Shown: piece after piece, positions 198 through 57,783 of the stretch
Layout: each line of letters starts with the position of its first letter
How positions within the stretch are numbered: position 1 is the stretch's first letter
DNA from: Leptolyngbya sp. FACHB-36
Lineage (GTDB): Bacteria; Cyanobacteriota; Cyanobacteriia; Leptolyngbyales; Leptolyngbyaceae
NCBI RefSeq assembly: GCF_014695955.1
Contig: NZ_JACJPG010000189.1
Span: 1 to 64,000, forward strand
Direction: 5' to 3'
Length of the DNA stretch: 64,000 nucleotides
The notes under the pieces: generated by a model
The model's input: the letters and a program-made list of their open reading frames with translations, nothing else
The model's database searches: none
What the model was told of the DNA's origin: nothing
Translations under genes and position numbers: made by a program

Positions 198-271
198 GGC
201 GAGCGTAGCCAAGTGGTTAAGGCAGAGGATTGTGGTTCCTCCACGCGCGGGTTCGACTCCCGTCGTTCGCC
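198..271 (+). tRNA. trnH: tRNA-His (anticodon GUG)
   Basis: The acceptor strands GCGAGCG (199-205) and CGTTCGC (264-270) pair fully with one G-U. A five-pair anticodon stem encloses the loop TTGTGGT with anticodon GTG, and a T-arm with GTTCGACTC is present. The extra 5' G at 198 opposite C271 is the G-1 identity element special to tRNA-His. No CCA is encoded. tRNA genes are common integration targets for cyanobacterial islands and prophages, and the mobile DNA starts shortly downstream, but I could not find a second copy of the tRNA 3' half in the window. Confidence 0.95.
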
Positions 272-380
272 CTGGTTTCAGGGATTAAACAAAACTCCTT
301 ACCTAAAGGCTTCCCTAGCCTGTTCTTGGTCCCTTAAGAGCAGATGTTCGGTGACAGATTTATGTCGCTGAAGCTAAGGG

Positions 381-677
381 TCAATGCTGCAACCCCTTCA
401 AAAACTCGATCGCCTGCTTTAACTTCTCTTCGGGCAGGTTCTCAGTCAAGGTTTTGATTTCAGATTTTTCTAGGCTTTTCAGCCAGTGGTCTCTGCTGTT
501 GTCTTCCTCAATCAGCAGCGGCAGTCCTCGCTCGATCGCTTGGCTATAAACGTCGGCGATCGCGATCTCCTTTTTTGCGGCAAGCTTTCTAGCTGCGTCA
601 TCGTCAGTCGCGCTAACCCTGGCTTCAATCTTGATTTTTGACGGTTTGCCTGCCACCTCGATCGCCTCTTCTGCCAT
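381..677 (-). CDS. Small probable ribbon-helix-helix protein
   Basis: 98 residues. The N-terminal half has a short beta-like stretch (KIKIEARV) followed by two predicted helices around residues 20-50, the usual layout of an RHH DNA-binding fold; the C-terminal half is a charged helix with LPEEKLKQAIEFLKG. The start at 677 is preferred over the ATG at 689 because GGAG lies six bases upstream of it. It is transcribed away from the large plus-strand operon and shares the intergenic region that carries direct repeats and dyads at 748-842, so it could be the regulator of that operon or an antitoxin without a visible toxin. The family is not certain. Confidence 0.6.
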   Translation of the reverse strand: MAEEAIEVAGKPSKIKIEARVSATDDDAARKLAAKKEIAIADVYSQAIERGLPLLIEEDNSRDHWLKSLEKSEIKTLTENLPEEKLKQAIEFLKGLQH

Positions 678-747
678 ATACCCCTCCATATTATCGGTGC
701 CATCAGCGCTATTTTAGCTGAGAAGCTTGAAAGACACCCTCATATTG

Positions 748-782: not shown

Positions 783-842
783 TTCAAGCGTGAATCGTTC
801 ACGCCTGTACCATGTACCACCGTGAATCGTTCATGCTTGAAG
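783..842. promoter_or_regulatory. Nested dyad repeats upstream of the first operon gene
   Basis: GCGTGAA-TCG-TTCACGC at 788-804 is a perfect inverted repeat. CGTGAA-TCG-TTCATG at 821-835 is a second copy with one mismatch. The two are also halves of a larger dyad: TTCAAGCGTGAA starting at 783 is the reverse complement of TTCATGCTTGAA ending at 842 except for one base. The right copy lies at the beginning of the first gene of the operon (start 812 or 833). This is the arrangement of a cooperative repressor operator; the divergent RHH gene is the obvious candidate binder, by inference only. Confidence 0.6.
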
Positions 843-1192
843 TGAGTGTTGAATCTGTTGCTCAGACTGGCTTGTTCCGTCCGCAACTAATTCGGTTGTT
901 GTCTCGGCTGCGGTATCCCCAGATTGACAAGTTTGATCAAATCTTCAATCCGGCACCTCAGATCGACCCAACAACCCTTTGGCTGTGGTGCGATTTGGTG
1001 GGAGTTCGTACGGGATTGGACTGGTTCAGCGAACAGGAGTGTGTGCAGCTCGGCGCGATCGCTCTGTGGTTGATGACTGGGCGCAAGAAACGTGATTTCC
1101 TCGCGCTGTCTGAATCAGAGCTGTATCAGCTACACAGCATTACCGCCCAAAAAATTCACCAACTAGACCGGAGGATCTGTGACTACGATTAA
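812..1192 (+). CDS. Hypothetical protein, first gene of the envelope/ATPase operon
   Basis: 126 residues, no signal peptide or membrane segment. The middle is rich in aromatic residues (LWLWCDLVG, LDWFSEQE) and the C-terminus is helical. I do not recognise the family. An in-frame ATG at 833 would leave the second dyad copy entirely upstream and may be the real start; neither start has a good ribosome-binding site. It overlaps the next gene by 14 bases (1179-1192), which indicates translational coupling and makes it the first member of the operon running to 9.8 kb. Confidence 0.6.
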   Translation: MYHRESFMLEVSVESVAQTGLFRPQLIRLLSRLRYPQIDKFDQIFNPAPQIDPTTLWLWCDLVGVRTGLDWFSEQECVQLGAIALWLMTGRKKRDFLALSESELYQLHSITAQKIHQLDRRICDYD

Positions 1193-1730
1193 AGAGTTGC
1201 ATCGAGACCGTCGCATCGTCAGCCAGAATCGCGGCAGAGCGATCGCGGCTGAATTCAACTACTCGGAGCCGTTTACCACGGCGCAGATGGCGGACATCGC
1301 GGCAGTGGACGCTCTTATGACTCAAGAGGGGCTGCGCGGTGCCAAAGAAGGGGTTGCCCGTTTTCGACGGGGCGGGCAGTCTGCCTCAAATCCCGTTCAG
1401 GACTTTACCCAACAGGTGGAGGAACAGGGAGCTGCTGCCACGACCGCTGCCCAGCAGTCCGTTGCCCAATCCCTAGACCTCGTGGCTCAGAATGAGGCGG
1501 CAGGAATCTTAACGACGAAAAACCTAATGGTGGCGCACTACCTGACGGCTGGGACCGTTCCCGATCCAGGGCTGCAACATCAGATCGATCAGTCGAGCCG
1601 ACTGGTTGAGAACGTCCTTCTGTCCACGGTGCCCGCGTTCAACGTGGGAAACTTGATTCAGCAAGCGTCCATCGTGGCACTACCGTCGTCTGCTCGCACG
1701 GCGCTGCCCGAAGCTACGCCCAGCAGCTAA
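1179..1730 (+). CDS. Hypothetical Ala/Gln-rich protein
   Basis: 183 residues from a GTG start with GGAGG six bases upstream. The N-terminal part is basic (KELHRDRR...QNRGR). The middle is a low-complexity Ala/Gln/Thr helix region (about residues 80-110) that could form a coiled coil. No transmembrane segment is evident. It sits between the unknown first gene and a membrane protein in a tightly packed operon with the ATPase, so a structural or cytoplasmic accessory role in the same apparatus is likely. The function is unknown. Confidence 0.6.
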   Translation: MTTIKELHRDRRIVSQNRGRAIAAEFNYSEPFTTAQMADIAAVDALMTQEGLRGAKEGVARFRRGGQSASNPVQDFTQQVEEQGAAATTAAQQSVAQSLDLVAQNEAAGILTTKNLMVAHYLTAGTVPDPGLQHQIDQSSRLVENVLLSTVPAFNVGNLIQQASIVALPSSARTALPEATPSS

Positions 1731-1759
1731 CCCATTTTGTGGAGTCCTACCACCGTCTT

Positions 1760-2209
1760 ATGCTGAAGCGAATCGTCACCCTTGCCGCCGTCTCAATTTC
1801 CACCGCCGTAGTGGTGGGAGGAGCCGCTTACGTCGCGACCTTGGCGTCGATGGCGGGCATTCTGGCAACCCTGGAAGACCAGGTAAACGACGATCGCATG
1901 ACGGCGATCGCGTCGGTGGTAGGCGTCCAAACCGGAGTCGTCACAGGGGTTATCGCAGGCGCAGCGGCAGGAGTTGCTGCCGCGAGTGGACGCCGCAGAC
2001 CGCAGGTTCATGCGCCGCTTGACGCAAACCAGGTGCTGTTGAAACTGCTGAGTGAGCAGAGGATGCCGGAGGGTATGACCAGCAGCCAGGTCCTCAGCAC
2101 CATCGAAGCAATTGCGCTGGCTCAGGCATCGTCTCGCCTGCCCCAATCCGCACCCGTCGCACAGCCCTCCGAGGCGACTACAGACCAGAGAACTAAGGTC
2201 AACGCCTGA
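1760..2209 (+). CDS. Small membrane protein with two hydrophobic segments
   Basis: 149 residues from ATG 1760; a GTG at 1739 in the same frame would add seven residues. Residues 2-30 form a hydrophobic helix beginning MLKRIVTLAAVSIS, and a second Val/Gly/Ala-rich helix spans about residues 45-72, separated by a short acidic loop with EDQVNDDR. The C-terminal half is soluble and Ala/Pro/Ser-rich. A hairpin of two helices with a soluble tail fits an inner-membrane component of the apparatus encoded by the operon. No family is recognised. Confidence 0.65.
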   Translation: MLKRIVTLAAVSISTAVVVGGAAYVATLASMAGILATLEDQVNDDRMTAIASVVGVQTGVVTGVIAGAAAGVAAASGRRRPQVHAPLDANQVLLKLLSEQRMPEGMTSSQVLSTIEAIALAQASSRLPQSAPVAQPSEATTDQRTKVNA

Positions 2210-2293: not shown

Positions 2294-3208
2294 ATGTCGG
2301 ACAACGGACGATCGACCGAAAACTTGGAAATCGACGGACTGCCTGCTCCGACGCCCGTTCCGTCGCCTGTCCCCGCTCCAGAGGTGCCGATCACTCTGAT
2401 TGAGCCAGAGGCGGACGCGGTAGAGCCTCGACAGGTCTCTAGAGTGCGGGTGCTGATTGGGCTGGGCGCGATCGGGCTGCTGATGTTGGGAATGACATTT
2501 TGTGCTCGTCCATCCAAGGACAAGCCCGCGACGATTCCCCAGCCGCCGCTTGCAAGTCAGGCGCTCCAAGCACCCGTTCCCACTCCCACGCCGTCGGCGA
2601 CCGCAACGCCAACGCCCACACCGTCCCCGACTCCAGCGCAGGATCAACTGGTCCGCGACCGGAACGACAAACTGCTGGAGGCGATCGGCGAATCCCTCAC
2701 GATGATTCAGCAGACTGGCGGGGCGCGCCGGTCCTACATCATGTCGAATCGGGCGACTCAACCTGACCGCCTGAAAGAGCTGAACCGACAAGCCGACCTA
2801 ATGCTGGATCAGGTTGGTAAGCAGCGGAAATTGTCTGGGAAGCCCGGAGACATCGACACCGCCCGCACGACATCCGGTGACGCCCAGGCGATTCTGCTGG
2901 TGCTGTTGAGAACCTGGATCGAAGACGGCTCGATCACGCCTGAACAGTTAGAGGAGTGGCGGACGAAAAACGACGCGATCGCCGCGCTGATTGATGAGGT
3001 GGTCGATCGGCAGGAGCCGAACGAACTCTCCAGCGCCACCCTCAACAAGAAAATGGCGGAGCTGTCTCGACTGGCGGGTGCCGTCTACTCGCAGTCCGAT
3101 GAAGAACAACAACGCCTCGAAGCCGAGCGGCGCAAAGCTCGGATGCAGGCAGTAAAGAAGGTTCGCAAGCCTCGGACCAACAAGCGCGCCGTCCAGACGT
3201 TGCCATGA
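2294..3208 (+). CDS. Single-pass membrane protein with Pro/Thr-rich stalk
   Basis: 304 residues. A Pro-rich acidic N-terminal tail (residues 15-45) precedes one transmembrane helix (about 50-67, VLIGLGAIGLLMLGMTF). A Pro/Thr/Ala stalk with repeated PTPTP follows (about 75-120), then a helical domain to residue 280 and a very basic C-terminus (RRKARMQAVKKVRKPRTNKR). The layout of membrane anchor, extended stalk and folded domain suits a protein that reaches across the periplasm. The stop overlaps the ATPase start by four bases (ATGA), so the two are translationally coupled and probably partners. Confidence 0.7.
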   Translation: MSDNGRSTENLEIDGLPAPTPVPSPVPAPEVPITLIEPEADAVEPRQVSRVRVLIGLGAIGLLMLGMTFCARPSKDKPATIPQPPLASQALQAPVPTPTPSATATPTPTPSPTPAQDQLVRDRNDKLLEAIGESLTMIQQTGGARRSYIMSNRATQPDRLKELNRQADLMLDQVGKQRKLSGKPGDIDTARTTSGDAQAILLVLLRTWIEDGSITPEQLEEWRTKNDAIAALIDEVVDRQEPNELSSATLNKKMAELSRLAGAVYSQSDEEQQRLEAERRKARMQAVKKVRKPRTNKRAVQTLP

Positions 3209-4722
3209 AACTCAAACCCTTGACCCCACGACACCTCGCCCTCACCGCTGCCAGCGCTCTGCTGGTAGCAATGGTGCTGTGCTTTAAGGCGTCAACGGTG
3301 CGGCAAGAGGTAGCGGGCGTGCGAATGACCGAGGCGGGCACGTTCCAAATGGAGCGGTGGCACATTCCCCGCTCGGATCGTCTCTGGTACGTAATGGGGG
3401 CACTGCTTTGTCTGGGCACGGTCGGCACGCTGCCGTTCGTGCGGCTGCCGTCGGGCGAACTGTTGGTAGAGGTGGACACGCTCGCCGATGACATGCTCGA
3501 CACGATCGAAGTGCTGACCGGCTATGCCAACGCCGCGATCGCACACACCGCACAGGCAGGTTCAACCCTGGCGCTGGCGGCAGGTAAAAAGACGGCGAAG
3601 GTTCTGTACCTGCACGCCACACCGCCTGCCCTCAAGGATGTGATCGATGAAGCAATTAGCGACCAGACCTGGCTGACCACTTTTCTGAAAGCACCGCACA
3701 ACTGGATCATCGGTAAGACTGGCGGCGGCAAAACGATTCTGGCGGGCAAAATTCTGTCGTACACGATTCAGGTGGCGCAAGAGAGTCAGCGCCCGTTTGA
3801 GCTGACGATCTGCGATAAGAACTACGGCAAGCCGAATCCCGAAACCGGAGAAATCAACGACTGGTTCGGCATTCCCAGCGAATACGTCCTCAGCGACCTG
3901 AGCAAAATTGAGCAGTTTATCCGGGAGCAGAAGGAAGAACTTGACGACGAAATCGCCGCTTGGGAGCGCTACGCCCGCGATCGGCAGACGAACCCCAACG
4001 CCAGCAAGCCTGAGTTCAAACGCCGGATCATCCTGATTGAGGAGAACGACGGTACGCAGAAGGAGCTGCAACAAGCATTTGAGCGCCGTCGTCAGGCGCA
4101 AAAGAACTCCCGCACGAAGCCAGCCGAAAAGGATGAATTTTCGTTCATCGAGAACCTGTGCTTCCTGCTGAAAGAGGGACGCGGCTACGGCTGGAAGGTG
4201 ATTCTGATCGGTCAGTCAGCGGCGGTCACGGAGTCGGGCGTCAATGAGGCGCTGAGGACTCAACTGTCGATCGTCATGGTCGGGGACAACTGCGAAATTA
4301 TCCGCGAGGTGCAGAAGTTCGGCGCGGGCGAACCGGCTGCTCTGGTTGTCAAGGCTGCCGAAATCCGCAAGAAGGGTAAGCGGCGCGCGATCGTGCAGCT
4401 AGAGGGCGGCGAACCCGTCGTCCGCGTGGTGCCCGACATGAGCGAGGTGGCGCGGTTCCGCATCCGTCGCCGAGATCCCAACTACGACTGGTGGCAGTCC
4501 GTCTGGACAGAGGAGAACAAAGCGTGGCTGTGGCAGGAAGCGCAGGCAGTCGCGGCTGGCGAAGCTAAGTCGCTGCTGTCGAGCAACCGCAAATTAGAAC
4601 TCAAAGAAAAATTTGGCATTATCCCAGACGGCAACGACCCCCGCTACACCCGCTATTTCAAGGACGCCTGGGAAAAGTTGTTACTGCAAGCAAAGGAGGG
4701 TAGCGATCGCAAAGCAGGCTAG
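3205..4722 (+). CDS. Membrane-anchored FtsK/VirD4-type ATPase
   Basis: 505 residues. Two hydrophobic helices occur in the first 85 residues (LALTAASALLVAMVLCF and VMGALLCLGTVGTLPFV), followed by a cytoplasmic P-loop ATPase. Walker A is GKTGGGKT at about residues 169-176. The Walker B-like strand RRIILIEEND (about 273-282) carries Glu where Asp is usual. VILIGQSAAV (about residues 332-341) fits a sensor/arginine-finger strand of the FtsK-HerA superfamily. The topology and size resemble type IV coupling proteins and FtsK-like DNA pumps, which move DNA or protein substrates through a membrane pore. Neighbours are membrane proteins and cell-wall hydrolases, which supports an envelope-spanning translocation role. 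The substrate is unknown; no relaxase is nearby. Confidence 0.8.
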   Translation: MKLKPLTPRHLALTAASALLVAMVLCFKASTVRQEVAGVRMTEAGTFQMERWHIPRSDRLWYVMGALLCLGTVGTLPFVRLPSGELLVEVDTLADDMLDTIEVLTGYANAAIAHTAQAGSTLALAAGKKTAKVLYLHATPPALKDVIDEAISDQTWLTTFLKAPHNWIIGKTGGGKTILAGKILSYTIQVAQESQRPFELTICDKNYGKPNPETGEINDWFGIPSEYVLSDLSKIEQFIREQKEELDDEIAAWERYARDRQTNPNASKPEFKRRIILIEENDGTQKELQQAFERRRQAQKNSRTKPAEKDEFSFIENLCFLLKEGRGYGWKVILIGQSAAVTESGVNEALRTQLSIVMVGDNCEIIREVQKFGAGEPAALVVKAAEIRKKGKRRAIVQLEGGEPVVRVVPDMSEVARFRIRRRDPNYDWWQSVWTEENKAWLWQEAQAVAAGEAKSLLSSNRKLELKEKFGIIPDGNDPRYTRYFKDAWEKLLLQAKEGSDRKAG

Positions 4723-6351: not shown

Positions 6352-6710
6352 TGAAGCCACTCTATTCCGTTTGGGAGGTCGCCTCTCGCTGGGACCCAGA
6401 CATCCAGGGTTATCGAGAGCGGCAGGTTTTGTCCGGGCTGACCCATGAAGAAGCTCGCTACATTGCAGACTTCCGATCGATGGGCAGCGACTGCTACAGC
6501 TATTTCGTCCGCCTCGATCTGCCTCGTGTTCGGTGGGTCCTCGTGGTGCCGCCAGAGGAGCGCAACTCGTACCCTGGCTACTGCCACGGATCGACGGGAC
6601 GGAATTATGAGTTCTCGCCCCACCGAGATGGCACCGTCTCAGTCTGGTTTGACAGCGGCTCCCTGTTTCCTGTTCCGTCTGCTTGGATCTGCCCTGTTTC
6701 TCCGCCATGA
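6351..6710 (+). CDS. Hypothetical protein, translationally coupled
   Basis: 119 residues from ATG 6351, which overlaps the previous stop; a longer in-frame reading from 6258 is rejected because it would overlap the previous gene by 94 bases. The protein is rich in aromatics and Arg (YSVWEVASRWDP; YCHGSTGRNYEFSPHRDG). There is no membrane segment. The last four bases (ATGA) overlap the start of the next gene. The family is not recognised. Confidence 0.55.
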   Translation: MKPLYSVWEVASRWDPDIQGYRERQVLSGLTHEEARYIADFRSMGSDCYSYFVRLDLPRVRWVLVVPPEERNSYPGYCHGSTGRNYEFSPHRDGTVSVWFDSGSLFPVPSAWICPVSPP

Positions 6711-7711
6711 CGACAACGTTTGACCCCAACGTCAACCGCCACCGCGATCGCGGTGGGCGTTTCACCAATCCTCGACGGCGGCGCGGCTCCCCCGGCAATC
6801 CTCCGCCACAGCCACCACAGCTATCGAACAAAGATCTGGCGACGTTGCAGCGACTGTTGCGCGACTACACTCAGGGCTATCTGCGCGAGAAAATTATCCT
6901 GCGGGCTGCCCATAATATCGCGAAGCATCACAGCAAGCGGGGCAAGGATCACCTGCTGGAGTGGACGGTCTTCTTCTTGTTTTTGGCAGCGCTGTTCGTT
7001 GCCTATGCCACTCCGTTCAATGCGCCCGCGACAACTGCCGCGACGATCGCGCCCGCGACGGCTTCAGCCTCATCGGTAGAGCCTGCCGTTGCCGACGAGT
7101 CCCCGTCGCCCGAAAGTCAGCGGCAGCTCGCCAGCAAAATCGTCTCCTACCTGACGGCAAAAGGTTGGAGGTTTAGCCAACAGGCGGGAGAGGTGACGAT
7201 CGTCTATCTGGAGGGCAAAAACGCCGACGGTAGCGACAACGACAACGCGCCCGACCAGTTCAACGATCGCCGCGTCGTCCTGACGTTTAAGGACGGGCAG
7301 CCGACGATCGGCGGCAACTGGGTAGCCACGATCAGCCCTGGTGACTATTACATCAAGAACAAGATGAACCCCAAGGGCACGGCATTCGTGCGCCCTGGCG
7401 AGTACCGGGAGGGCTGGACGATCGGCACCCATCAGGGAGCGTCTTCCGCGCCGCAGGAGGCGCTGGTGCAGGCGGCTCCGATCACCGTCTATCGCGACAA
7501 CATCAGCGCCGACACCGGCGATTTCGGCATCAATCAACACGGCGGTTGGGATGCGCCACTCAACCAGGTGGGCAATACCAGTGCGGGCTGCCTGGTCGGT
7601 CGCACGGTCGAGGGGCATCAGGAGTTTATGCAGATGGTTAAGAGTGATCGCCGCGCTCAAAATTCCGCGTTTCGATTCGACACGCTCATTATCCCGAAGG
7701 GAGGTTTCTAG
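6707..7711 (+). CDS. Membrane-anchored protein with L,D-transpeptidase-like H...SxGC domain
   Basis: 334 residues from ATG 6707, which overlaps the previous stop (ATGA). The N-terminus is basic and Pro-rich (NPRRRRGSPGNPPP). One transmembrane helix follows at about residues 86-104 (TVFFLFLAALFVAYATPF), then an Ala/Thr linker and a periplasmic domain from about 140. Near the end, GINQHGGW (His about 278) is followed by NTSAGCLV (Cys about 294). His plus SxGC is the signature of YkuD-type L,D-transpeptidases and related phage peptidoglycan enzymes. I infer a cell-wall remodelling enzyme serving the apparatus of this operon. The family assignment is by motif only; the endolysin-like gene at 61420 has the same motif pair. 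Confidence 0.6.
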   Translation: MTTTFDPNVNRHRDRGGRFTNPRRRRGSPGNPPPQPPQLSNKDLATLQRLLRDYTQGYLREKIILRAAHNIAKHHSKRGKDHLLEWTVFFLFLAALFVAYATPFNAPATTAATIAPATASASSVEPAVADESPSPESQRQLASKIVSYLTAKGWRFSQQAGEVTIVYLEGKNADGSDNDNAPDQFNDRRVVLTFKDGQPTIGGNWVATISPGDYYIKNKMNPKGTAFVRPGEYREGWTIGTHQGASSAPQEALVQAAPITVYRDNISADTGDFGINQHGGWDAPLNQVGNTSAGCLVGRTVEGHQEFMQMVKSDRRAQNSAFRFDTLIIPKGGF

Positions 7712-7993
7712 ATGCTGTTCAAGGTCGCTCACGGTTTACTCATCCGTCGCAAACTCACTGACGATGAGCAGGCATGGCTGTATTTCTTCTTCGTGTTCGG
7801 CAGCCTGTGGATGACGATCGTGATGCTGCTGGCGGGATTCGTCGCTGCCGACTCGAAGATTAAGGACCGCTGCGCCGTCGCTGCGTTGATCTTCGGATGC
7901 ACCGTCCCAACCTCGCTGTTTACTGCCTTTGCATTGACCACCGACAGAGACATCGACAGAGACGATGACGATGACGATGACGATCGCGATTAA
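7712..7993 (+). CDS. Two-pass membrane protein with poly-Asp tail
   Basis: 93 residues starting directly after the previous stop, with GGGAGG just upstream. Two hydrophobic helices lie at about residues 22-45 and 54-74. The protein ends in an acidic tail of nine Asp residues among Arg, which is encoded by GACGAT repeats that also supply the ATG starts of the next gene in another frame. It is an inner-membrane component of unknown function. Confidence 0.6.
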   Translation: MLFKVAHGLLIRRKLTDDEQAWLYFFFVFGSLWMTIVMLLAGFVAADSKIKDRCAVAALIFGCTVPTSLFTAFALTTDRDIDRDDDDDDDDRD

Positions 7994-9200
7994 GCTGGCG
8001 TGGAAGCTGATTTCCCGCAAGCGGTCCAGTCGTCGATCTGCGGCAGGGCGCGACACCCTAGCGTACTGGGCAGGGCGCGGCACGATCGACGACTGGACTT
8101 ATGAACTGGTCATCATTCTGCTGTTGTTGGTCATCGCGGCTCGGTTCATCGCGCCGGTCGGTACAGTGGTGCAGCAGGCGGTGCAGCAGATTCAGTCGGC
8201 AGCCGCACCGCAACCCAACGGCAGCACGCAGATCGTGGCGCTGCGACAGGCGATCGTCGGGCAGGAGTCCAACGGCGACCCATCACTCCAGAATGCCAGT
8301 GGATCGGGCGCAATGGGACTAGGGCAGGTGATGCCGGAGAACCTGCCATCCTGGAGCCGCGAGGCGCTGGGGCGAGAAATCACGCAGCAGGAATTTCTCA
8401 GCAGTCCGGATCTACAGCTGAAAATCATCGACCACAAAATCGATCAGTATTGGCAGTCCGCCATCAAAGCCGCCAATGGCAATCAGGATGAGGCAGTGCT
8501 GCGGGTGGCGGCACAGTGGTACAGCGGCGACCCGGAGAAATACACCAGCACGACGCCGCAGTCGTGGGCAGGCGATTCCTATCCCTCGATCGCCGAGTAT
8601 TCCCAGCAGGTCTTGCAGCGCTACAAGGCAATTCCGCAGGCGGCAGTCAGCCCAGCCAAGCCTTCAGCTTCGATCGGCTCCAGCGCTCCCATCTCCAGCG
8701 TCGTCAAAATTTACAGTGGCGGTGAGATTGGCTCCGGCGTCGTGGTCACGCCGAACCGCATTGCGACCGCTGCCCATGTGCTGAAAGATTTAGGGCAAAT
8801 CAATATTCAAGCGGGCGACCAGTCGTTCACAGGGCGAGTCATTGCCACGGACCGCTCCACAGACTTGGCGATCGTGGAGGTTCAGAGAACCCTTGCCCCC
8901 GCTCGCCTAACCAAGGTGCAACCCACCGTAGGCGAACAGGTGACGGCGATCGGTAATCCCCGCAATCAGGGGATTCAAGCGACGACAGGCAAACTGACGA
9001 GTGCCAGCATCATGAGTGGCGTTACGCACTCAGCCCCAATCTTCCCCGGCAGTTCCGGCGGCGGGCTATTCAACGATCGAGGCGAACTTATCGGCATCAA
9101 CATCCGGGCAGACTATGCCGATCCTGATAAAGCAACGGGTTTCATTTCGGGACGGGCAATTCCTACGCCTGTCATCACGGCACGACTGGAGGCACTATGA
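7965..9200 (+). CDS. Membrane-anchored lytic transglycosylase fused to a trypsin-like serine protease
   Basis: 411 residues. A transmembrane helix spans about residues 46-65 (ELVIILLLLVIAARFIAPVG). A goose-type/SLT lytic transglycosylase domain follows (about 88-220), with catalytic Glu in VGQESNGDP, SGAMGLGQVMP and AAQWYSGDP; it would cut glycan strands of peptidoglycan. A chymotrypsin/HtrA-type protease domain then runs from about 240 to 405, with TAAHV (His), STDLAIVEV (Asp) and PGSSGGGLF (Ser), so the triad is complete. No PDZ domain is present. Three in-frame ATGs (7965, 7971, 7977) overlap the previous gene. Lytic transglycosylases of VirB1 type open the wall for secretion systems; a fused protease is unusual. 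Confidence 0.85.
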   Translation: MTMTMTIAIKLAWKLISRKRSSRRSAAGRDTLAYWAGRGTIDDWTYELVIILLLLVIAARFIAPVGTVVQQAVQQIQSAAAPQPNGSTQIVALRQAIVGQESNGDPSLQNASGSGAMGLGQVMPENLPSWSREALGREITQQEFLSSPDLQLKIIDHKIDQYWQSAIKAANGNQDEAVLRVAAQWYSGDPEKYTSTTPQSWAGDSYPSIAEYSQQVLQRYKAIPQAAVSPAKPSASIGSSAPISSVVKIYSGGEIGSGVVVTPNRIATAAHVLKDLGQINIQAGDQSFTGRVIATDRSTDLAIVEVQRTLAPARLTKVQPTVGEQVTAIGNPRNQGIQATTGKLTSASIMSGVTHSAPIFPGSSGGGLFNDRGELIGINIRADYADPDKATGFISGRAIPTPVITARLEAL

Positions 9201-9694
9201 GCGACGGTAAAACTCACGACTTCATCACGATCTCCACCAGTCCCGTTATCGGCTGTCTGGCGGCGCAGATGTCAGCAACGGTTGCGGTAACAACGACGAT
9301 CGGGTATTTGGTGGGCGGGTTGCTCCTGTCGCCCGACCTGGATGTCAAATCACGCCCCTGGCGGCGATGGGGCTGGCTGCGGTTTATCTGGCTGCCGTAT
9401 CAGAAACTGGTGCCTCATCGCAGTTGGATCTCCCACACGCCGATCGTCGGTACGCTGATTCAGTTGTCGTATTTAGGCGCGATCGTGCTACTGGCCGCCA
9501 CGTTGTTGGGAATTGATGTTTGGACGATCGTTCGAGTGGTCGTCGATCGCCAGCAGGATGTAGGGGAAGGCAATCCGTGGAGCGTGAACTGTTTTGCGTT
9601 AATCACTGGGCTTTGCTTGGGATCTTGGGCGCATCTCGTTGCTGATACGCTGAGCAGCCTAGGTAAACACAAAAAGAAGAAGCGCCGACCGTGA
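9197..9694 (+). CDS. DUF2227-like metal-binding membrane protein
   Basis: 165 residues starting in the overlap ATGA. The pattern of the uncharacterised DUF2227 family is visible: early SDGKTHD, then LLLSPDLDVKSRPWRRWG, WLPYQKLVPHRSW and a C-terminal SWAHLVAD. The conserved His and Asp residues suggest metal binding, and several hydrophobic segments suggest a membrane protein. Its role is not established for the family. It is near the end of the operon, and its C-terminus is very basic (KHKKKKRRP). Confidence 0.7.
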   Translation: MSDGKTHDFITISTSPVIGCLAAQMSATVAVTTTIGYLVGGLLLSPDLDVKSRPWRRWGWLRFIWLPYQKLVPHRSWISHTPIVGTLIQLSYLGAIVLLAATLLGIDVWTIVRVVVDRQQDVGEGNPWSVNCFALITGLCLGSWAHLVADTLSSLGKHKKKKRRP

Positions 9695-11507: not shown

Positions 11508-12620
11508 ATGGTGACTGCACATAGCAAGCCGCTCTCTCACTGCCGTTGGTTGACGGCGGTGGACTTGTTTTGTGGATGCGGTGGTGTGACCGCAGGTTTA
11601 AAGCAACACAACTTTCGGGTGGTTGCAGCCGTTGACGAAGACCCGAACGCTTGCAATACCTATCGGGTGAATCATCCAACCGTTCACCTGTATCCTTACG
11701 ACATTAGGACTGTTAATCCTCAAGACATCCGCGACGTTGATCTGCATGGTGAGGATCTTGACTTGTTAGTGGTGTGTGCGCCCTGTCAGCCGTTCAGCAG
11801 TCAGAATCGCTCCAATAAGGTAGATGAGCGCTCGGATTTAATTTTTCAAGCGACTCGATTTGCCAAAATTCTCAAACCTGCCGTTATCTTCTTTGAGAAT
11901 GTGCCGGGACTGGCAACACTCAAATACAGGGGCTTACTCGATACACTTAGAGCAGATTTAGCTAAACTCAACTATCAGTTGAGTGAACCCTTACCAATTG
12001 ACGCAGCAGATTATGGCGTTCCGCAAAGACGCAAACGATGTATTCTACTGGCAGTTCTCGATGCCCCTGTTCCTCCTATCCCAGTGCCAACAACCCCGCA
12101 AGGGCAGCGAGTGACAGTTAAGCAAGCTATTGGACATCTGCTTTCTCTCAAATCAGGAGAAGGAGATCCGGATGACCCCTTACATCAAGCCAGCACACAT
12201 CTACCCCTCGTGCTAGAGCGGTTGCACTTCATTCCGAAGAATGGAGGCAGTCGCTATTCCTTGCCTCCACATCTGGTGTTAGATTGTCACCGAAATCATA
12301 AAGGACATGGCGATGTATATGGGAGAATGCAATGGGGCGATGTAGCCCCAACCCTGACAACCGGATGTACGAATGTTACACGCGGACGCTTCGCTCATCC
12401 TCAAGACGATAGAGCCATTACGCTACGAGAGGCAGCACTGCTACAAACGTTCTCCCCATACTACGAATTTGTCGGTAATCGCGACCAAATTACGGCACAG
12501 ATAGGTAATGCCGTTCCAGTCAAACTGATGAGTGCTTTCGCTCCAACCTTAAGAAGCACAATCAAGCAAGCAAGACAACCTGTGGCTTCATCTGTTAATC
12601 CAGCTTCATCTGTTTCCTAA
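11508..12620 (+). CDS. DNA (cytosine-5-)-methyltransferase
   Basis: 370 residues. All main C5-methyltransferase motifs are present: I DLFCGCGG (19-26), IV APCQPFS with the catalytic Cys (about 94-100), VI ENV (about 130), VIII QRRKR (about 173), IX REAALLQTF and X QIGNAVP (about 331-337). It transfers a methyl group from S-adenosylmethionine to cytosine C5 in a specific site; the target cannot be read from sequence. Its 3' end overlaps the convergent nuclease-like gene by 26 bases, so the three genes to 16310 form one module. It probably marks self DNA for the HerA-containing restriction complex. HIP1 sites seem rarer here than in the flanking genes, suggesting transfer. Confidence 0.92.
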   Translation: MVTAHSKPLSHCRWLTAVDLFCGCGGVTAGLKQHNFRVVAAVDEDPNACNTYRVNHPTVHLYPYDIRTVNPQDIRDVDLHGEDLDLLVVCAPCQPFSSQNRSNKVDERSDLIFQATRFAKILKPAVIFFENVPGLATLKYRGLLDTLRADLAKLNYQLSEPLPIDAADYGVPQRRKRCILLAVLDAPVPPIPVPTTPQGQRVTVKQAIGHLLSLKSGEGDPDDPLHQASTHLPLVLERLHFIPKNGGSRYSLPPHLVLDCHRNHKGHGDVYGRMQWGDVAPTLTTGCTNVTRGRFAHPQDDRAITLREAALLQTFSPYYEFVGNRDQITAQIGNAVPVKLMSAFAPTLRSTIKQARQPVASSVNPASSVS

Positions 12621-14733: not shown

Positions 14734-16310
14734 TGCTGCACGGCCTCCTTCATCTTAGGGGTAGGCGCACCACTCGGAGTACTGCGGTCACGGACGTTGA
14801 CGAGGACAGGATGACGTAGGATGTCTTGGGCGGAGGCAATGATTGCTCGTCCTCTTGCCATCTTCGGAATGCGGTCAATCACAGGCTGGGGTAAATCGCC
14901 CATCGTCCCTGAGACAACCTTGAGGTCATCTGGGTCGAGCGCAAATACGACGCGAGTGTTGCAGACCGTCAAGGTTTGTTTGTCCATTGATGCTGGGCTT
15001 TGAGTAATCAAGACGACACCGACTGCATCATGGCGACCCGTGCGAATTAGCTGCCGCATAACCTGAGTGGTAGGGGTGGACTCTCCACCCCCTGGAAGAA
15101 AGAAGTGCGCCTCGTCAAGAACAAAGAGGAATGGCGGCAGTTTTTCCTTCTGCCTCAGCACTTGTAGGACGCGAGCAGCAGCACCGACAACTAGGTTGCG
15201 GTTGCCTTGTGCTAAATGCCCCACAAAGATATTGACGATGGGTTTAGTGATGAGATCTTCGACCCATGCTCCCAAAGATTCCACTAGAAGTAGGCTGCGC
15301 TCAAAAGCAGCCTTTACCCGCTTAATGGCTCGCCCTCCAACAGGTTCTTGTCCGTTCTCCCCCGCAACAAGACGAATTTCAGCATAGAGTCGTTCAATTG
15401 GAATATTGACTGTGCCAGTCTCCTTCAGGCTCTCAATTGCTTCTGTGTAGATCACATCGTAGGCATCTGAGACAAGGTCGATGTGCTGGTCCGTCAAGGT
15501 TGGAACAAAATCTAGAAACTCCTTGCGCCCAATAATACTATAGGGAACCTTGAAATCTTGACCAGCCCTCAGATTCGCCCCCTTTAAACTCTCAGTTGCT
15601 GGAACCAGATCGCCCAGAATGTCGATGGCGATAATGGGAATTCGGTACCGTGTAATCTCCTCAACCATCACGCCACAGAAGTGACTTTTGCCCACACCTG
15701 TCTTGCCAAGAACTGCCATGTGACGGGGTAGCACATCCATTGGCAAACAAAATTGCAGCTTGTGCCCACCTGTTTCAATGTGCCCAATGGACAATCCATC
15801 CTCGTTAGGCTTAGGTGTTTTAAGAATGTCAGGAAGAGCGCTAGTAGGTAATTCATAAACCGCCATTCCTGTTTGAGGCAGTACCTCTGGGTCTCGGATA
15901 TCAACTTGGTCGTCCTTTTGGTCGTCCTTCAGTCGCAACTGACCTAAAATCTCAATATTCATGACACGAGTGACATGAGGTGCAAGTTCTGAGGGACGGG
16001 GCGTTCTCGGCACTGCTTGATAAGCTTGGTCTTTCTGAAGTCGAGACGGCTCGGCTCTGGGGTTCTCTTCAAGCCCCTCAACAATCCGTCCGTAGTGCGC
16101 CATTGTTGGCTCCTCACTACCAATGAGAACAAAGGTTCCTAAACGTGGTTGCTTACCAGCGTTGACATGAAAGGGAGCAGCATCAAAGCTGGGAGAGCCT
16201 GTAAAGGGAGAGGAGGAGGTTGTACCAATACTTGTTGCTGGAGCAACACCCAAGTGAGCAAGCAATGTAGCCTGGGGCTGCGGAGCAGGAGGAGTAGCTA
16301 TACTTCTCAT
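14715..16310 (-). CDS. herA: HerA-family DNA translocase ATPase
   Basis: 531 residues. An N-terminal HAS-barrel-like part (MAHYGRIVEGLEENPRAE, about residues 90-107) precedes the ATPase. Walker A GKTGVGKS lies at about 204-211, Walker B FLFVLDEAHFF at about 394-404, and VVLITQSPASMD fits the sensor strand. HerA forms hexamers that pump double-stranded DNA and couple to a nuclease. The first 60 residues are Pro/Ser/Thr-rich and low complexity. The stop overlaps the nuclease-like gene, and the start is preceded by the repeated GCGAAATAT motif. It is the likely motor of a methylation-guarded defence module. Confidence 0.88.
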   Translation of the reverse strand: MRSIATPPAPQPQATLLAHLGVAPATSIGTTSSSPFTGSPSFDAAPFHVNAGKQPRLGTFVLIGSEEPTMAHYGRIVEGLEENPRAEPSRLQKDQAYQAVPRTPRPSELAPHVTRVMNIEILGQLRLKDDQKDDQVDIRDPEVLPQTGMAVYELPTSALPDILKTPKPNEDGLSIGHIETGGHKLQFCLPMDVLPRHMAVLGKTGVGKSHFCGVMVEEITRYRIPIIAIDILGDLVPATESLKGANLRAGQDFKVPYSIIGRKEFLDFVPTLTDQHIDLVSDAYDVIYTEAIESLKETGTVNIPIERLYAEIRLVAGENGQEPVGGRAIKRVKAAFERSLLLVESLGAWVEDLITKPIVNIFVGHLAQGNRNLVVGAAARVLQVLRQKEKLPPFLFVLDEAHFFLPGGGESTPTTQVMRQLIRTGRHDAVGVVLITQSPASMDKQTLTVCNTRVVFALDPDDLKVVSGTMGDLPQPVIDRIPKMARGRAIIASAQDILRHPVLVNVRDRSTPSGAPTPKMKEAVQQWRQNH

Positions 16311-20747: not shown

Positions 20748-21347
20748 ATGGAACACTGGACCCAGCAAGACTGCGAGAAACGGTACGTTGAAGGCGAGGA
20801 AATCACGCTAAAGGAACTCGTGGACCTTAGCAAGGTTCCACTGAGCACCTTGAAGAAGTGGTGCGCTAAAGGGAATTGGAAAACTGCCCGCAGCAATTTC
20901 CAAAGGCAGTTGACGCAGCAGACTCGCGAGAAGACGATCGAGAAGACCAGCGATCGGCTCAGTGATGAACTGTCCGAACTCACACTAGAACATATCGAGG
21001 CGTATCGAATTTGCCGTTTGATTGCGAGTATTAAAGGTAAGCACGCGCTGAAAAAACTTGAGGCGGCGTTCCCTGCCTCAGATGAAGAATCTGATGATCC
21101 AATAGCGGCAGAGTTTGCCGAAACGCGGAAGAGTGAGGCACTCAAGGCGATCGACGTGAGTGTCCTGAACTTTCTCAGCCTCGTCATTGATCGCTCTGTT
21201 CGAGGGGAACGGCTCGCCGCCGGACTCGACTACGAGAATCTGAACAAGGCAATGGCGACAATCGAGCAAGCTGGAATGCAGGCAGTAGTTAAAGACAATG
21301 CGCTTCTCACGAAACTCGTTACTGCTCAAGCACGCCAAGAACGTTAA
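20748..21347 (+). CDS. terS: Phage terminase small subunit (probable)
   Basis: 199 residues. A helix-turn-helix is visible at about residues 18-44 (ITLKELVDLSKVPLSTLKKW), followed by long charged helices (TREKTIEKTSDRLSDELSELTLEHIEAY). The fold, length and position directly ahead of the large subunit, with a 50-base overlap, fit TerS, which recognises the phage pac/cos site and hands DNA to TerL. GAGG precedes the ATG. Sequence evidence is general and context does most of the work. Confidence 0.75.
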   Translation: MEHWTQQDCEKRYVEGEEITLKELVDLSKVPLSTLKKWCAKGNWKTARSNFQRQLTQQTREKTIEKTSDRLSDELSELTLEHIEAYRICRLIASIKGKHALKKLEAAFPASDEESDDPIAAEFAETRKSEALKAIDVSVLNFLSLVIDRSVRGERLAAGLDYENLNKAMATIEQAGMQAVVKDNALLTKLVTAQARQER

Positions 21348-23241
21348 GGTTCTTTCAGCGATCGCAGAGTCCCAGTTCACCTCGGCAGACAACGGCTATC
21401 CTTGGCGTGACGAAGACAGCGATTTGTTCGCTCCAAAGTCACTTGATCGCTTCCTGTTTGAAGAATTGGGAATTCGGCTCTATCCCAAACAAGAAGAGGA
21501 TCTGAGCGCAATTCTCGGCACCGACCCTAAGCGCGTATTTGACGCAGGGACAGGGCTACCGCAGCAAGGTATTCTCGCCTACGGCAAAGGCTCCGGCAAA
21601 GACTTCATTGTCTCGTGCGTTATGCTCTGGGGCTGCCATGTGCTGCTGTGCCTCAAGAATCCTGCCCGCTATCTAGGTCAGGCGGATGGAGAAAACATCG
21701 ACGTGTTGACGGTTGCCTACTCCCTAACTCAGGCAACCACGGTTCTGTTTTTCAAAATCAAGGCACGCCTGAAAGCCTGTGGCTGGTTTCGATCAGCGAT
21801 CGCGGAGTTGGTTCCGTCTATTCCGCCAGAGCGCTACCTAAAAGATGGCAATGGATTCGTTGGAACGGACTCGATTCACTTTCCTGGCAACCTGCGGCTG
21901 TGGTCAGTCCCTGCAACGGATGCCGCAGAAGGTAAGAACCCGATTCTCTGGGCTGCGGACGAGATCTCCGCGTTTTCGTCTCCGGTACGGATGAACCAAG
22001 CGAAGCACATCTATGACATTCTGACTTCTTCCGCTCGCACTCGCTTCGACGATCGTTGGAAAGGTTTTGTCATCAGCTACCCACGCCACAAAGAAGATTT
22101 TCTGATGCAGTTGATTCGGAGCGTGCAGCTAGGTCAGGCATCAGATACTTATGCTGTGGTTCGATCGTCCTGGGAGGTCAACCCCTCGATTACTCGCGAG
22201 AGCTTGCAGGTAGACTACGATCGCGACCCCGAAGGCGCTGCCTGCCGCTACGAGTGCAAACCGCCTGCTGCGGTTGATGCCTACTTCCGCTCTCCAGAAC
22301 TGCTGCTGCTGCACGCCTCTGGTGCGCCCATTGACTTGTTGACACAGTATCTAGATTTGCCGGACGACGTGCTCCATGTGATCGCGGAACTGGGGCAATC
22401 ACCTCTCCTCGAAACCGACGATTGGGGTGATCCAATCCTCGATCGACGCGGCTTCCCGAAGCTCGCCCCCTGGTTCCGTGGGCAGTCCGATCCATCTGGG
22501 CAGCCCTACGAATATTGGGTGCATGTGGATTTGGGACTGACAAACGATGCAGCAGGATTTGCGATCGGGCATCTCCATCAGTCGCCGCTTGGTCTGCAAC
22601 CTGTCATCGATCTGGCGTTTCGCTGGACTGCCAACCACTTCCGTGAGTTTGGGGAGATTCATCGGCAGGCGTGGTTCTTCGACACTGTTGATCAAACCGA
22701 GTTGGTAAGTGCGGCAGAAATCGACATCCGCACGGTCCGCGAGTTCCTCTTCTTTCTCCGGCAGGCACGCGGCTTCAATTTGGCGCTGGTCACGTTTGAC
22801 GGGTTTAACTCTGCTGAAACAATGCAGGAACTTCGCAAGCGTGATGTCCCGGTAGGATCGCACACCGTTGACAAGTCGGATTACGACGAATTTAAGGGAC
22901 TGGTCTACGATCGCCGCCTCCGCTACTACGCCTACCCAATCTTGATCAGAGAGTCCTACAAACTCCAGATCGTAAATGGCTCCAAAGTTGATGCCCCGCG
23001 CACCAAGACCAAGGTAGGGGATAGGGAAGGTAAAACCGACAGCCACAAAGATGTGAGTGACGCAGCAGCAGCGATCGTGGCGCGGATGGCGCGGTTAAAA
23101 GATGAGTCCGTCGAGTTCTACCAGATGCCACCTGTCGAGTCTTTGTTTGAGCGATCGATTGGACCAATCCAAATTGAAGCTAGCGCTGAATCAATTAGTG
23201 CGGCTCAGAAGTCGATTTTGCAAGCGTTTTTCGATGGTTAG
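21298..23241 (+). CDS. terL: Phage terminase large subunit
   Basis: 647 residues. N-terminal ATPase: Walker A YGKGSGKD (about 94-102) and Walker B ILWAADEIS (about 217-225). C-terminal RNase-H-like nuclease: YWVHVDLGLTNDAAG (Asp about 410), LVTFDGFNS, and HKDVSDAAAAI, giving the three acidic metal ligands. TerL cuts concatemeric phage DNA and drives it into the prohead through the portal. Length is within the family range, so it looks complete. The start at 21298 overlaps terS; later starts are possible because the first 20 residues are not distinctive. Confidence 0.93.
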   Translation: MRFSRNSLLLKHAKNVKVLSAIAESQFTSADNGYPWRDEDSDLFAPKSLDRFLFEELGIRLYPKQEEDLSAILGTDPKRVFDAGTGLPQQGILAYGKGSGKDFIVSCVMLWGCHVLLCLKNPARYLGQADGENIDVLTVAYSLTQATTVLFFKIKARLKACGWFRSAIAELVPSIPPERYLKDGNGFVGTDSIHFPGNLRLWSVPATDAAEGKNPILWAADEISAFSSPVRMNQAKHIYDILTSSARTRFDDRWKGFVISYPRHKEDFLMQLIRSVQLGQASDTYAVVRSSWEVNPSITRESLQVDYDRDPEGAACRYECKPPAAVDAYFRSPELLLLHASGAPIDLLTQYLDLPDDVLHVIAELGQSPLLETDDWGDPILDRRGFPKLAPWFRGQSDPSGQPYEYWVHVDLGLTNDAAGFAIGHLHQSPLGLQPVIDLAFRWTANHFREFGEIHRQAWFFDTVDQTELVSAAEIDIRTVREFLFFLRQARGFNLALVTFDGFNSAETMQELRKRDVPVGSHTVDKSDYDEFKGLVYDRRLRYYAYPILIRESYKLQIVNGSKVDAPRTKTKVGDREGKTDSHKDVSDAAAAIVARMARLKDESVEFYQMPPVESLFERSIGPIQIEASAESISAAQKSILQAFFDG

Positions 23242-25054: not shown

Positions 25055-26506
25055 ATGCAGCAATTAAATAGCTGGCAGCTAAACAAGCTGGTTCACAGCC
25101 CAGACCCCGATATGTCGCTGCGTCAGGCTCGCCGACTTCTGAAAGCGATCTACGACGAGTCGCAGCCACGACGCAGGCGAACTTTACCCAATAGCTTTGC
25201 CACCCTCTCAGGACGTGCCCAACCGCGAGAGGGTTTTTTGTCAGTGGAGTTGCTGCGGGCAATATACATCCGCAGCGAACTGGTGAGGGCTTGTGTCGAT
25301 ACGTTGATCGAGTTCTTCTCTGCCGTCAATTGGACGATTCGCCCGATCGACGAGGATCGAACAGGATGGCTGAAGGAACGCCGCCCTGACGAATACAAGG
25401 ATCAGCAACAGAGAATCGCATGGCTGAAAACTTTTTTTCGTAGACCTAACACTTACGAGGACCTCGACACGTTCCACCGGCGCTTACTGCGCGACCTGCT
25501 GATCTTCGACGCTGCTGGCTACGAAATTATTACAGCAGACTATCCCGATGGCGGACGTTTGCCTATTGAAATCGGCGGTGTGGCAGGAGACACGATCGAG
25601 ATTGAAACTGACGATCACGGCATCCCTGTCACCTACTGGCAGAGTTACAACGTGCTGCACAATCAGCCTTATCAGCCAGAGGATCTGGCGTACCTGATGC
25701 TGAATCCTTGCAGCTGGCAGGCGTACGGCTTGTCACCGATCGAGACTGCCTACATAACGATCGCGACCGACCTTAGTGCAGGAAAATACAACGCAGATGT
25801 GTTTGGCAAAAACAACATCCCTCCCGCGCTGCTGGCAGTTTTAGGAGTCAGTCAGGCGGAGTTCACCAAAATAATGTCGCAGTTGCGATCGACATCCGCA
25901 GACAACCCGCACAACATTCATGCGGTTCGCGCCAATCGTGCGCCAGACGGTTCTGCCCAGAAAGTGTTTGAAATGATTCCGATGTCGCAGGTTTCTAATC
26001 GAGACATGCAATACCGCGAGTTATTGCAGCTGTGCATCAACCGTGTGTGCATGATGTACCGCGTCACGCCTTCCCAAATCGGCTTCACCGAGCAAATTGC
26101 TGGAGGGATTGGCAGCGGAATTGCTGAGACGCAGGAGAACCTGAGCCAAAACAAAGGGGTGGCTCCTTTGCTACGAAAGGTGTCGCAGACTCACACTTTC
26201 AATGTGATTCAGTCGATCTGTGGTTGGGATGACGTGGAGTTTGCCTTTGTGCAATCCAACACGCCGCAGGAGCAGCTTGACTATCAGCGATCGCTTCAAG
26301 AGTTGCAGTCCGGGGTCATCACTCAAAACGAATTCCGGCAGAGGTGGGGCGGCAGAAAGCCTGTGGACTGGGGCGATCAACCGCTCAACGCTCCGCAGGG
26401 CTATCAGCCTCCGGGTGCCCAACCTGCTGTGGGCGATCAACCTGCAATGCCTCAACTTCCGCAGGCTATGCAGAAATCTACTAAACGAATCATCTTTAAC
26501 TATTAG
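25055..26506 (+). CDS. Phage portal protein
   Basis: 483 residues. The sequence follows the portal pattern: LSVELLRAIYIRSELVRACVDTL, the helix-rich wing, YLMLNPCSWQAYGLSPIETA, then MSQVSNRDMQYRELLQLCINRVCMMYRVTPSQIGF and a Pro/Gln-rich C-terminus (about 435-475). Twelve copies form the ring through which DNA enters and leaves the head and to which terminase docks. Position after terminase is standard. Length is usual for the HK97/Mu-like range. Confidence 0.85.
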   Translation: MQQLNSWQLNKLVHSPDPDMSLRQARRLLKAIYDESQPRRRRTLPNSFATLSGRAQPREGFLSVELLRAIYIRSELVRACVDTLIEFFSAVNWTIRPIDEDRTGWLKERRPDEYKDQQQRIAWLKTFFRRPNTYEDLDTFHRRLLRDLLIFDAAGYEIITADYPDGGRLPIEIGGVAGDTIEIETDDHGIPVTYWQSYNVLHNQPYQPEDLAYLMLNPCSWQAYGLSPIETAYITIATDLSAGKYNADVFGKNNIPPALLAVLGVSQAEFTKIMSQLRSTSADNPHNIHAVRANRAPDGSAQKVFEMIPMSQVSNRDMQYRELLQLCINRVCMMYRVTPSQIGFTEQIAGGIGSGIAETQENLSQNKGVAPLLRKVSQTHTFNVIQSICGWDDVEFAFVQSNTPQEQLDYQRSLQELQSGVITQNEFRQRWGGRKPVDWGDQPLNAPQGYQPPGAQPAVGDQPAMPQLPQAMQKSTKRIIFNY

Positions 26507-43003: not shown

Positions 43004-43013
43004 GCTACATCAT

Positions 43014-56805: not shown

Positions 56806-57783
56806 ATGTCTAGTGCAGTAATGACCAAGCGCCAGCTCCTAAAGGCGCTGTCGATGAGTGACGGCGGTGGCGCTGAAGTCACTCTGCAAACAACGATCGC
56901 GTCTGAAGTCGTGCCCCTGATTCGACAACAGTGCTTTATGCGGCAAATTGCCGAAAAGTCAAAGTCGCTGATCAACATGACGAAGCCGAAGATCCGCATC
57001 CCTCGATTGATGCGGGCACAGGGCGCGTACGCGGTGAAGTCGGGTGCGCCTGCGCCTGAGTTCAAGGTGCGGATGGACGGAATTGACCTGGTGCCGGAAA
57101 AGCTGATGACCTGGCTCCCGATCGAGATGGAGGTTTTCGAGGACTCCACCGTAAAAGACATTGAGGGAATGCTCCGTGAAGAAATGGCGCGGGAATTCGC
57201 TCAAGCAGAAGAAATCGCGTTCCTCTTAGGCGATGTCGCACAAAACTTCGGCGCGGGAGATCCTCGCAACGTCTTCAACGGGTTGTTGAAGCAGTCAGCG
57301 GGCAGTCCCTACACCTACGACGCAACGCTCGATCAAACGGATGGGCAGGCGGTTGTCTCCAACTTGATTCGCGCAATGCGATTCCTGGGAATCTACGGAC
57401 GCAACAAGCGTGACATCACGATTCTCTGCGGCTTGTCGCTAGAGGAAGCACTGCTGCGAAACAAAGGTTTCCAGACAATGAACTCCTATGCGTTTGGTTC
57501 AGGCGCTGGACTGTTCACGGGTGAACTGGGACGTTTGGCAGGCGCGACTGTGGTGGCGACCTCCTTCCTTGACGCTCAACCCGGAGACTTGTTCAGCAAG
57601 TGCCTCGTAATCCACAACTCAGCGTTTGCGATCGGGGATTGGCAGTCGTTCTCCGTCCGCACGTTCTCAGAAATCCTGTCGCAGACCGATCAGGTGGCGA
57701 TTCGTGCTCGTGAGCGGATTGCGTTCTGCACCCGATATCCAGAGGCGATCATTCAAGTTCTAAACATGCCTGCTACGCCCTAA
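56806..57783 (+). CDS. Major capsid protein (HK97 fold)
   Basis: 325 residues. The pattern fits HK97-type capsid proteins: VVPLIRQQCFMRQIAE, a strand region KIRIPRLMRAQGAYAV...EFKVRMDGIDL, WLPIEMEVFEDSTV, a helix REFAQAEEIAFLLGDV, then GLSLEEALLRNKGFQTM and AGATVVATSFLD, ending with RARERIAFCTRYPEAI. It forms the icosahedral shell. Position after protease and scaffold is canonical. The first 25 residues may be trimmed. A later in-frame ATG at 56821 is possible. Confidence 0.88.
   Translation: MSSAVMTKRQLLKALSMSDGGGAEVTLQTTIASEVVPLIRQQCFMRQIAEKSKSLINMTKPKIRIPRLMRAQGAYAVKSGAPAPEFKVRMDGIDLVPEKLMTWLPIEMEVFEDSTVKDIEGMLREEMAREFAQAEEIAFLLGDVAQNFGAGDPRNVFNGLLKQSAGSPYTYDATLDQTDGQAVVSNLIRAMRFLGIYGRNKRDITILCGLSLEEALLRNKGFQTMNSYAFGSGAGLFTGELGRLAGATVVATSFLDAQPGDLFSKCLVIHNSAFAIGDWQSFSVRTFSEILSQTDQVAIRARERIAFCTRYPEAIIQVLNMPATP

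Follow-up and report, generated by a model that had tools for sequence, protein, structure and literature searches.

A lytic transglycosylase fused to a trypsin-like protease in a membrane-protein operon of a cyanobacterial prophage

Results

The operon lies near the left end of a contractile-tailed prophage

The DNA analysed here, referred to as the window, is the whole stretch of 64,000 nucleotides at the start of contig NZ_JACJPG010000189.1 of Leptolyngbya sp. FACHB-36. The contig has a length of 130,314 bp, nearly all of which is one integrated element of 130 kb (Table 1). Besides the terminase, portal and head genes, the DNA between the attachment-site repeats contains tail sheath and baseplate genes. 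Judged by this set of att sites, integrase, terminase, portal, capsid, sheath and baseplate genes, the element is a complete contractile-tailed prophage in tRNA-His. The first 44 kb of the contig are listed as viral in IMG/VR.

Several other features of the prophage were recorded. Two giant multidomain proteins of 1630 and 2163 aa (29766-34658 and 35727-42218), with methylase and SNF2-type helicase matches, resemble polyvalent proteins, which were reported to be rare in cyanobacteria (PMC5512222). The genes for a cytosine methylase, a 712-aa protein without assigned role and a HerA-type ATPase at 11508-16310 may represent a defence island within the prophage. A secreted metalloprotease-like protein containing the motif HEVGHIQGARH is encoded at 42921-44321, and a sigma-70-like factor, judged by its N-terminal sequence alone, at contig positions 117579-118580.

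Near attL there is an operon of closely packed genes on the same strand, and the gene of the transglycosylase–protease fusion lies within it. A counterpart of its first small membrane gene (1739..2209) occupied the same place in six related loci (L046, L047, L050, L172, L179 and L224), and in the relatives viewed a gene of similar topology to that of the 304-aa membrane protein was found upstream of the ATPase gene. The latter protein gave a DotF/IcmG match with E 4e-4, far under the cut-off. The partner wall enzyme encoded upstream of the fusion matched phrog_3000 (E 8e-25) and phrog_33083, annotated 'endolysin' (E 3e-10), and gave no match in Pfam. Its C-terminal domain possibly has an L,D-transpeptidase/YkuD-like fold, and its N-terminal anchor showed a weak likeness (E 0.002) to the M23 protein of L224, where a DUF2227 gene also closes the operon.

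Two motifs of the partner enzyme recur elsewhere. The H...SAGC motif is present in two proteins of the element (6683-7711 and 61420-62196) and suggests a YkuD-like wall enzyme. The N-terminal motif FDPxxNRYR...GKF was seen in the partner enzyme, L047 (8916-10853), L222 (5372-7540) and L175 (13479-14201); its bearers are wall enzymes of the operon and one phage gene with portal-like genes close by.

Table 1. Features of the prophage and of the operon (window coordinates unless stated otherwise)
Feature	Position	Strand	Basis or remark
attL, 3' part of tRNA-His gene (199-272)	223..278	+	56-bp exact direct repeat
Divergent small regulator-like gene, 102 aa, operon head	381..689	-	49% identity to same-placed L046 gene
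Operon gene 1, 126 aa, no assigned function	812..1192	+	Weak homologue, same order in L224
Operon gene 2, 183 aa, no assigned function	1179..1730	+	Same-order gene in L224, 35% identity, E 1e-32
Small two-helix membrane protein, 156 aa	1739..2209	+	Hydropathy
Membrane protein, 304 aa, one helix and long outer or inner domain	2294..3208	+	Hydropathy
Membrane-anchored P-loop ATPase, 505 aa, Walker A GKTGGGKT	3205..4722	+	FtsK/HerA profile matches
Membrane protein, 148 aa, one helix	4753..5199	+	Hydropathy; like-sized, like-placed gene in L224
Membrane-anchored protein, 226 aa, one N-terminal helix	5196..5876	+	Hydropathy
Partner wall enzyme, at most 342 aa, helix 89-114, C-terminal H...SAGC	6683..7711	+	phrog matches, motif
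Small two-helix membrane protein, 93 aa; its Asp-rich tail overlaps the fusion start	7712..7993	+	Hydropathy
LT + trypsin fusion	7965-9200	+	Pfam, hydropathy, relatives' alignments
DUF2227 membrane protein, last operon gene	9197..9694	+	PF09988, E 4e-45
Phage terminase large subunit	21298..23241	+	phrog_17415, E 4e-12
Phage portal protein	25055..26506	+	phrog_2662, E 2e-35
Phage major head protein	56806..57783	+	phrog_10, E 5e-18
attR, exact copy of attL	contig 130202-130257, beyond window		Integrase-like ORF adjoins

A transglycosylase and a complete protease are joined in one polypeptide

The fusion gene encodes a protein of 411 aa in a frame that is free of stops from position 7938. The protein consists of an N-terminal membrane helix, a lytic transglycosylase (SLT/LT) region at about residues 82-225, a linker and a trypsin-like protease at about residues 245-411. 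Hydropathy analysis revealed a single hydrophobic segment at about residues 39-71, with a peak Kyte-Doolittle value of 2.7. In Pfam, the Trypsin_2 profile (PF13365) was covered in its whole length by residues 256-378 (E 3e-24); the SLT match (PF01464) was weak, with residues 95-131 scoring E 3e-4 and 20.9 bits where the cut-off is 21.3, and some relatives of this LT scored above that cut-off. Standalone LT proteins from related cyanobacteria were 57-62% identical to the LT region, which retained the motifs QES101, GLGQVMP and WYSG (185-188), which correspond to the catalytic Glu followed by Ser, the GLxQxMP motif and the aromatic-rich third motif of LT family 1, and in a five-way alignment these were invariant or nearly so. 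On the strength of these motifs the LT part is assigned as a family-1-like SLT/lytic transglycosylase. The protease part has the triad His271, Asp300 and Ser364, the last within GSSGG, and thus both the triad and the GxSGG signature of S1 trypsin-like proteases. When five fusions from different genomes were aligned, E101, WYSG 185-188, H271, D300 and S364 were invariant. The first-pass annotation had described a transglycosylase with its Glu site and a complete trypsin-like protease with the full His-Asp-Ser triad, joined in one polypeptide behind one membrane helix; the ORF, the hydropathy profile and the alignment bear out this description.

The nearest solved structures to the protease part were those of DegS, DegP and HhoA, and its NCBIfam matches were HtrA/DegS models, which would be in keeping with DegS/HtrA-like quality control in which the protease removes misfolded channel subunits during assembly. 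However, the NCBIfam scores fell far under the curated cut-offs, and no PDZ domain, the sensing domain of Deg proteases, was matched by Pfam in the fusion, whose chain ends with the protease. The protein was thus not placed in the HtrA/Deg family, and we give a quality-control role little weight.

A GATGAC repeat at 7953-7993 is read in two frames: in one it gives the 93-aa protein its Asp-rich tail, in the other it gives the fusion its MTMTMT start. This start holds three in-frame ATGs, and translational coupling of the two genes at the repeat is possible.

The ATPase and its neighbours recur on plasmids and in prophages

A profile built from nine homologues of the operon ATPase (A4) matched HerA/DUF87 structures with E 6e-6, FtsK with 0.009 and TrwB with 0.03, and by these matches the ATPase is a member of the FtsK/HerA superfamily. 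EccC/EssC, which are protein secretion ATPases, were also among the matches, EccC with a weaker score than HerA/DUF87, so the resemblance does not separate a DNA from a protein substrate, and the match at E 6e-6 would fit either alike. No recognisable TraB match was obtained in Pfam or NCBIfam.

Homologues of the ATPase were detected in 29 of the 388 genomes of the class. The relatives share parts of the gene order, namely the divergent small gene, small membrane proteins, the ATPase and membrane-anchored wall hydrolases, and their P-loop ATPase carries N-terminal membrane helices. Wherever the ATPase match was strong and the flanks could be read, nearly every operon examined combined the ATPase with small membrane proteins and with a wall hydrolase anchored in the membrane; in L087 a partial ATPase adjoined an LT gene. 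The type of hydrolase beside the ATPase varied, the arrangement being constant: M23+LT, M23+GH108, M23+phage lysozyme, separate M23 and SLT proteins, CHAP-like, LT+trypsin and M23+LT+trypsin were among the types seen. At the position of the partner wall enzyme (6683..7711) most relatives have an M23 peptidase. Many of the ATPase operons are without a protease, which makes the protease an accessory part. The closest operon overall, that of G196 (L224), matched the window at 812, 1179, 3205, the anchor of 6683 and 9197, and has a plain membrane-anchored SLT protein of 217 aa in place of the fusion. The protease is therefore most simply read as a putative addition to a pre-existing part of the operon. 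When viral contigs were searched with the alignment of the ATPase and with the protein encoded at 6683, no new relatives came up.

The genetic setting of the operon differed between its copies. Two plasmids of Oscillatoria acuminata, pOSCIL6304.01 and pOSCIL6304.02, carry it beside ParM/StbA and DUF5906 primase genes, and the stretches that were read contained no genes annotated as phage structural ones; the second of these plasmids also encodes a MOBP relaxase. G150 has two copies: one belongs to a prophage, the other to a plasmid-like contig of 26 kb that also encodes ParA, ParM and a DUF3854 primase (L218/L219 contig 8; L172). The ATPase genes of the two G150 copies were identical in DNA and the hydrolase genes had diverged; on the 26-kb contig the fusion gene is interrupted at the contig ends. 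Prophage-like regions, about 70 kb long and listed as viral by IMG/VR, surround the copies of G032 and G002, and the window has the operon in common with these loci, not the phage structural genes.

These settings bear on two alternatives. The first is that the fusion serves prophage lysis or is a virion-associated (tail) lysin, which would agree with its location within a tailed prophage and with the presence of related LT domains in phage tail proteins such as gp12 of Streptomyces phage Zeigle. We hold this to be improbable, since the same operon occurs on plasmids with no phage genes in the parts that were read and is linked to replication and partition genes; in the window, it lies close to attL together with ATPase and membrane-protein genes, and about 50 kb separate it from the genes for head and tail. 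The second is segregation, in which ParM and the FtsK-like pump would clear the closing septum of plasmid DNA or move such DNA through it, with the hydrolase opening the septal wall. A ParM/actin gene does stand first in the operon of most plasmid copies and of several phage ones. However, the window's operon showed no ParM-like gene, several copies reside in integrated prophages, which need no partition, and a protease would have no evident use, so that this proposal appears distinctly improbable.

Among the loci fetched, LT–protease fusions lie in the operon and probably arose more than once

The same order of LT and trypsin domains was found in four other cyanobacterial loci belonging to three genera and two families, which answers the question of conservation that the first-pass annotation had posed. 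Three of these fusions are of the form M23 + LT + trypsin in one frame (G032, 574 aa; G002, 645 aa; G162 contig 12, 655 aa). The fourth, from the 8-contig assembly G150, has 411 aa and the layout of the window's protein, and a separate M23 gene overlaps its start. A frameshift or misassembly between the domains was ruled out, as all four loci carry the fusion in one frame. A sixth operon (G010) encodes M23 + trypsin with a middle region without assigned domain. Among the LT homologues of the fetched loci, every trypsin fusion belonged to an operon locus, and of the other homologues, about 106 in number, not one was fused to trypsin (Fisher p 1.5e-5, an approximate value given that a few rows repeat the same genes as truncated copies and that flanks of 1.5 kb may miss the ATPase). 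A single-protein scan of genome contigs found no relatives. The idea that tail genes of Streptomyces phages are LT + trypsin fusions was discarded, gp12 of Zeigle being SLT alone.

In the LT tree, the LT domain of the window grouped with standalone LT proteins (98/95), and those of G032 and G002 grouped with phage LT domains. A single ancestral fusion was rejected for the LT domain (fusions as one clade, p-AU 1.3e-5); support in the trypsin tree was too weak to decide between a single and a repeated origin. Since the fusions do not form one clade, the pairing of LT and trypsin appears to have been assembled more than once, or the LT part to have been replaced, in the same operon position, and the pairing would have been selected more than once.

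Comparison of the prophage and 26-kb-contig copies of G150 gave a dN/dS of 0.09 for the protease part, which by this measure is under purifying selection. Between G032 and G002, dN was 0.77 for the protease and 0.15 for the LT, so that the protease evolved about five times faster and kept its triad. The linker between the domains is also fast-evolving, as expected of a cleavable segment, and this brings in the main rival reading, namely that the protease regulates the wall enzyme by cutting its own linker, its anchor or its partner, thereby releasing or stopping the LT and keeping the damage local. The extra hydrolase domains of PrgK from pCF10 mainly down-regulate its SLT domain (PMC11323569), which speaks for such regulation. 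However, the triad is conserved and the linker sequence is not, so that no common self-cleavage site is visible, and the difference in rate between protease and LT better fits changing external targets. We consider regulation possible, if unlikely. From the higher rate combined with the retained triad, the protease would most likely cleave envelope proteins at the breach.

The operon does not appear to be part of a conventional type IV secretion system

Searches of the genome, a draft that is 82% complete, gave no match to VirB4 (PF03135), VirD4 (PF02534) or the MobP relaxase (PF03432), MobP being the relaxase type covered, and no convincing match to AAA_10. A conventional type IV system, the form in which the transfer setting assumed in the first-pass annotation might have been realized, was accordingly discarded, the element being a tailed prophage. 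Of the properties of a VirB1 component, the fusion has the membrane-anchored SLT-type hydrolase and was not found encoded with VirB4, VirD4 and a relaxase. As the draft is incomplete, the absence of type IV genes outside the element is provisional. The lack of VirB4, VirD4 and MobP matches points away from a classical type IV system and towards a TraB-like double-stranded DNA mode; the MOBP relaxase of pOSCIL6304.02 means that relaxase independence may not be general.

Discussion

The operon, as read from its genes, looks built for crossing the envelope. Our preferred reading, which we advance tentatively and with a little less than even confidence, is that the fusion opens the cell wall for a DNA-translocation module that works without a relaxase and is common to plasmids and prophages, and that its protease trims envelope proteins. 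The helix would anchor the fusion in the inner membrane, with LT and protease both predicted in the periplasm. There the transglycosylase would cleave glycan strands, and the membrane-anchored neighbour encoded at 6683-7711, of M23 type in most relatives, would handle the peptide part. A channel of small membrane proteins could then pass the thick cyanobacterial wall, and the FtsK/HerA-type ATPase would pump the double-stranded DNA of the element through it without a relaxase, DNA as the substrate and the direction of pumping being presumed. The C-terminal protease would remove blocking proteins, presumably wall-bound or junction proteins of the cell itself or of the recipient. It had earlier been suggested that the protease could cleave peptide stems; S1 proteases act on L-peptide bonds, which makes stem cleavage by the trypsin domain unlikely. 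The stem enzymes of the operon are separate or fused M23-type proteins and, in the window, possibly a YkuD-like one.

A bolder reading is that cyanobacterial plasmids and integrated tailed phages share an undescribed relaxase-free conjugation machine made of an FtsK/HerA pump and membrane-anchored hydrolases, by which the phage genome would pass as naked double-stranded DNA besides being packaged in virions, the protease clearing junction proteins. We consider this rather unlikely; if true, a phage genome could spread between cells, for instance along a filament. Weak matches of the trypsin domain to the RT-Protease, LmuA and Avs1b defence proteases would be compatible with a prophage defence or superinfection-exclusion device having the protease as its effector. 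However, matches of this sort reflect trypsin-like proteases in general, no defence system was matched by the operon, and the components that stay constant in it are a pump and wall hydrolases, so that we regard a defence function as very improbable.

Under our preferred reading of DNA translocation, the operon is a candidate cyanobacterial DNA-transfer machine on plasmids and prophages, missed by the standard conjugation searches made, and it provides a defined gene set for testing the movement of these elements. In the open-access literature searched, no description of an LT + trypsin fusion or of its operon was found.

One DNA-transfer system with a general likeness is that of Streptomyces, where TraB/Spd proteins mediate relaxase-free transfer of double-stranded DNA (PMC12857230). 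Common to both are small membrane proteins and filamentous hosts, and the membrane-anchored ATPase may be FtsK-like as in TraB systems, its profile matches being to the FtsK/HerA superfamily and none to TraB itself; no MobP relaxase was found in this genome. In TraB-type conjugation, 8-bp clt repeats are recognised by the ATPase. To our knowledge, TraB systems have not been described with a dedicated LT, M23 enzyme or protease in the operon. As for the protease, HtrA/Deg proteins such as DegS and HhoA have a similar trypsin fold, membrane anchor, H-D-S triad and GxSGG signature, but the window protein is without PDZ and is fused to a transglycosylase. Phage tail lysins of M23 + SLT type (gp11/gp12 of Zeigle) combine a related LT with a neighbouring peptidase, whereas the fusion is membrane-anchored, lies outside the tail module, occurs also on plasmids and bears a serine protease.

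Among wall hydrolases of type IV systems, PrgK of pCF10 is a three-domain enzyme (PMC11323569). Together with TraG of pIP501 and the VirB1-type hydrolases of Gram-positive bacteria, it resembles the fusion in having one helix, an SLT domain and further hydrolase domains, and its order of M23 (LytM) and SLT is that of the relatives L046, L047 and L171. In contrast to PrgK and TraG, the fusion is set in cyanobacterial prophages and plasmids and ends in a trypsin-like serine protease, not in CHAP, and no VirB4, VirD4 or MobP relaxase was found in the genome of the window. In transfer systems, the enzymes that cut the wall are known to have peptidases or amidases as partners; a trypsin-like protease that is complete and stands at that place, apparently assembled more than once, would mean that opening of the envelope can include the removal of proteins and not only of peptidoglycan.
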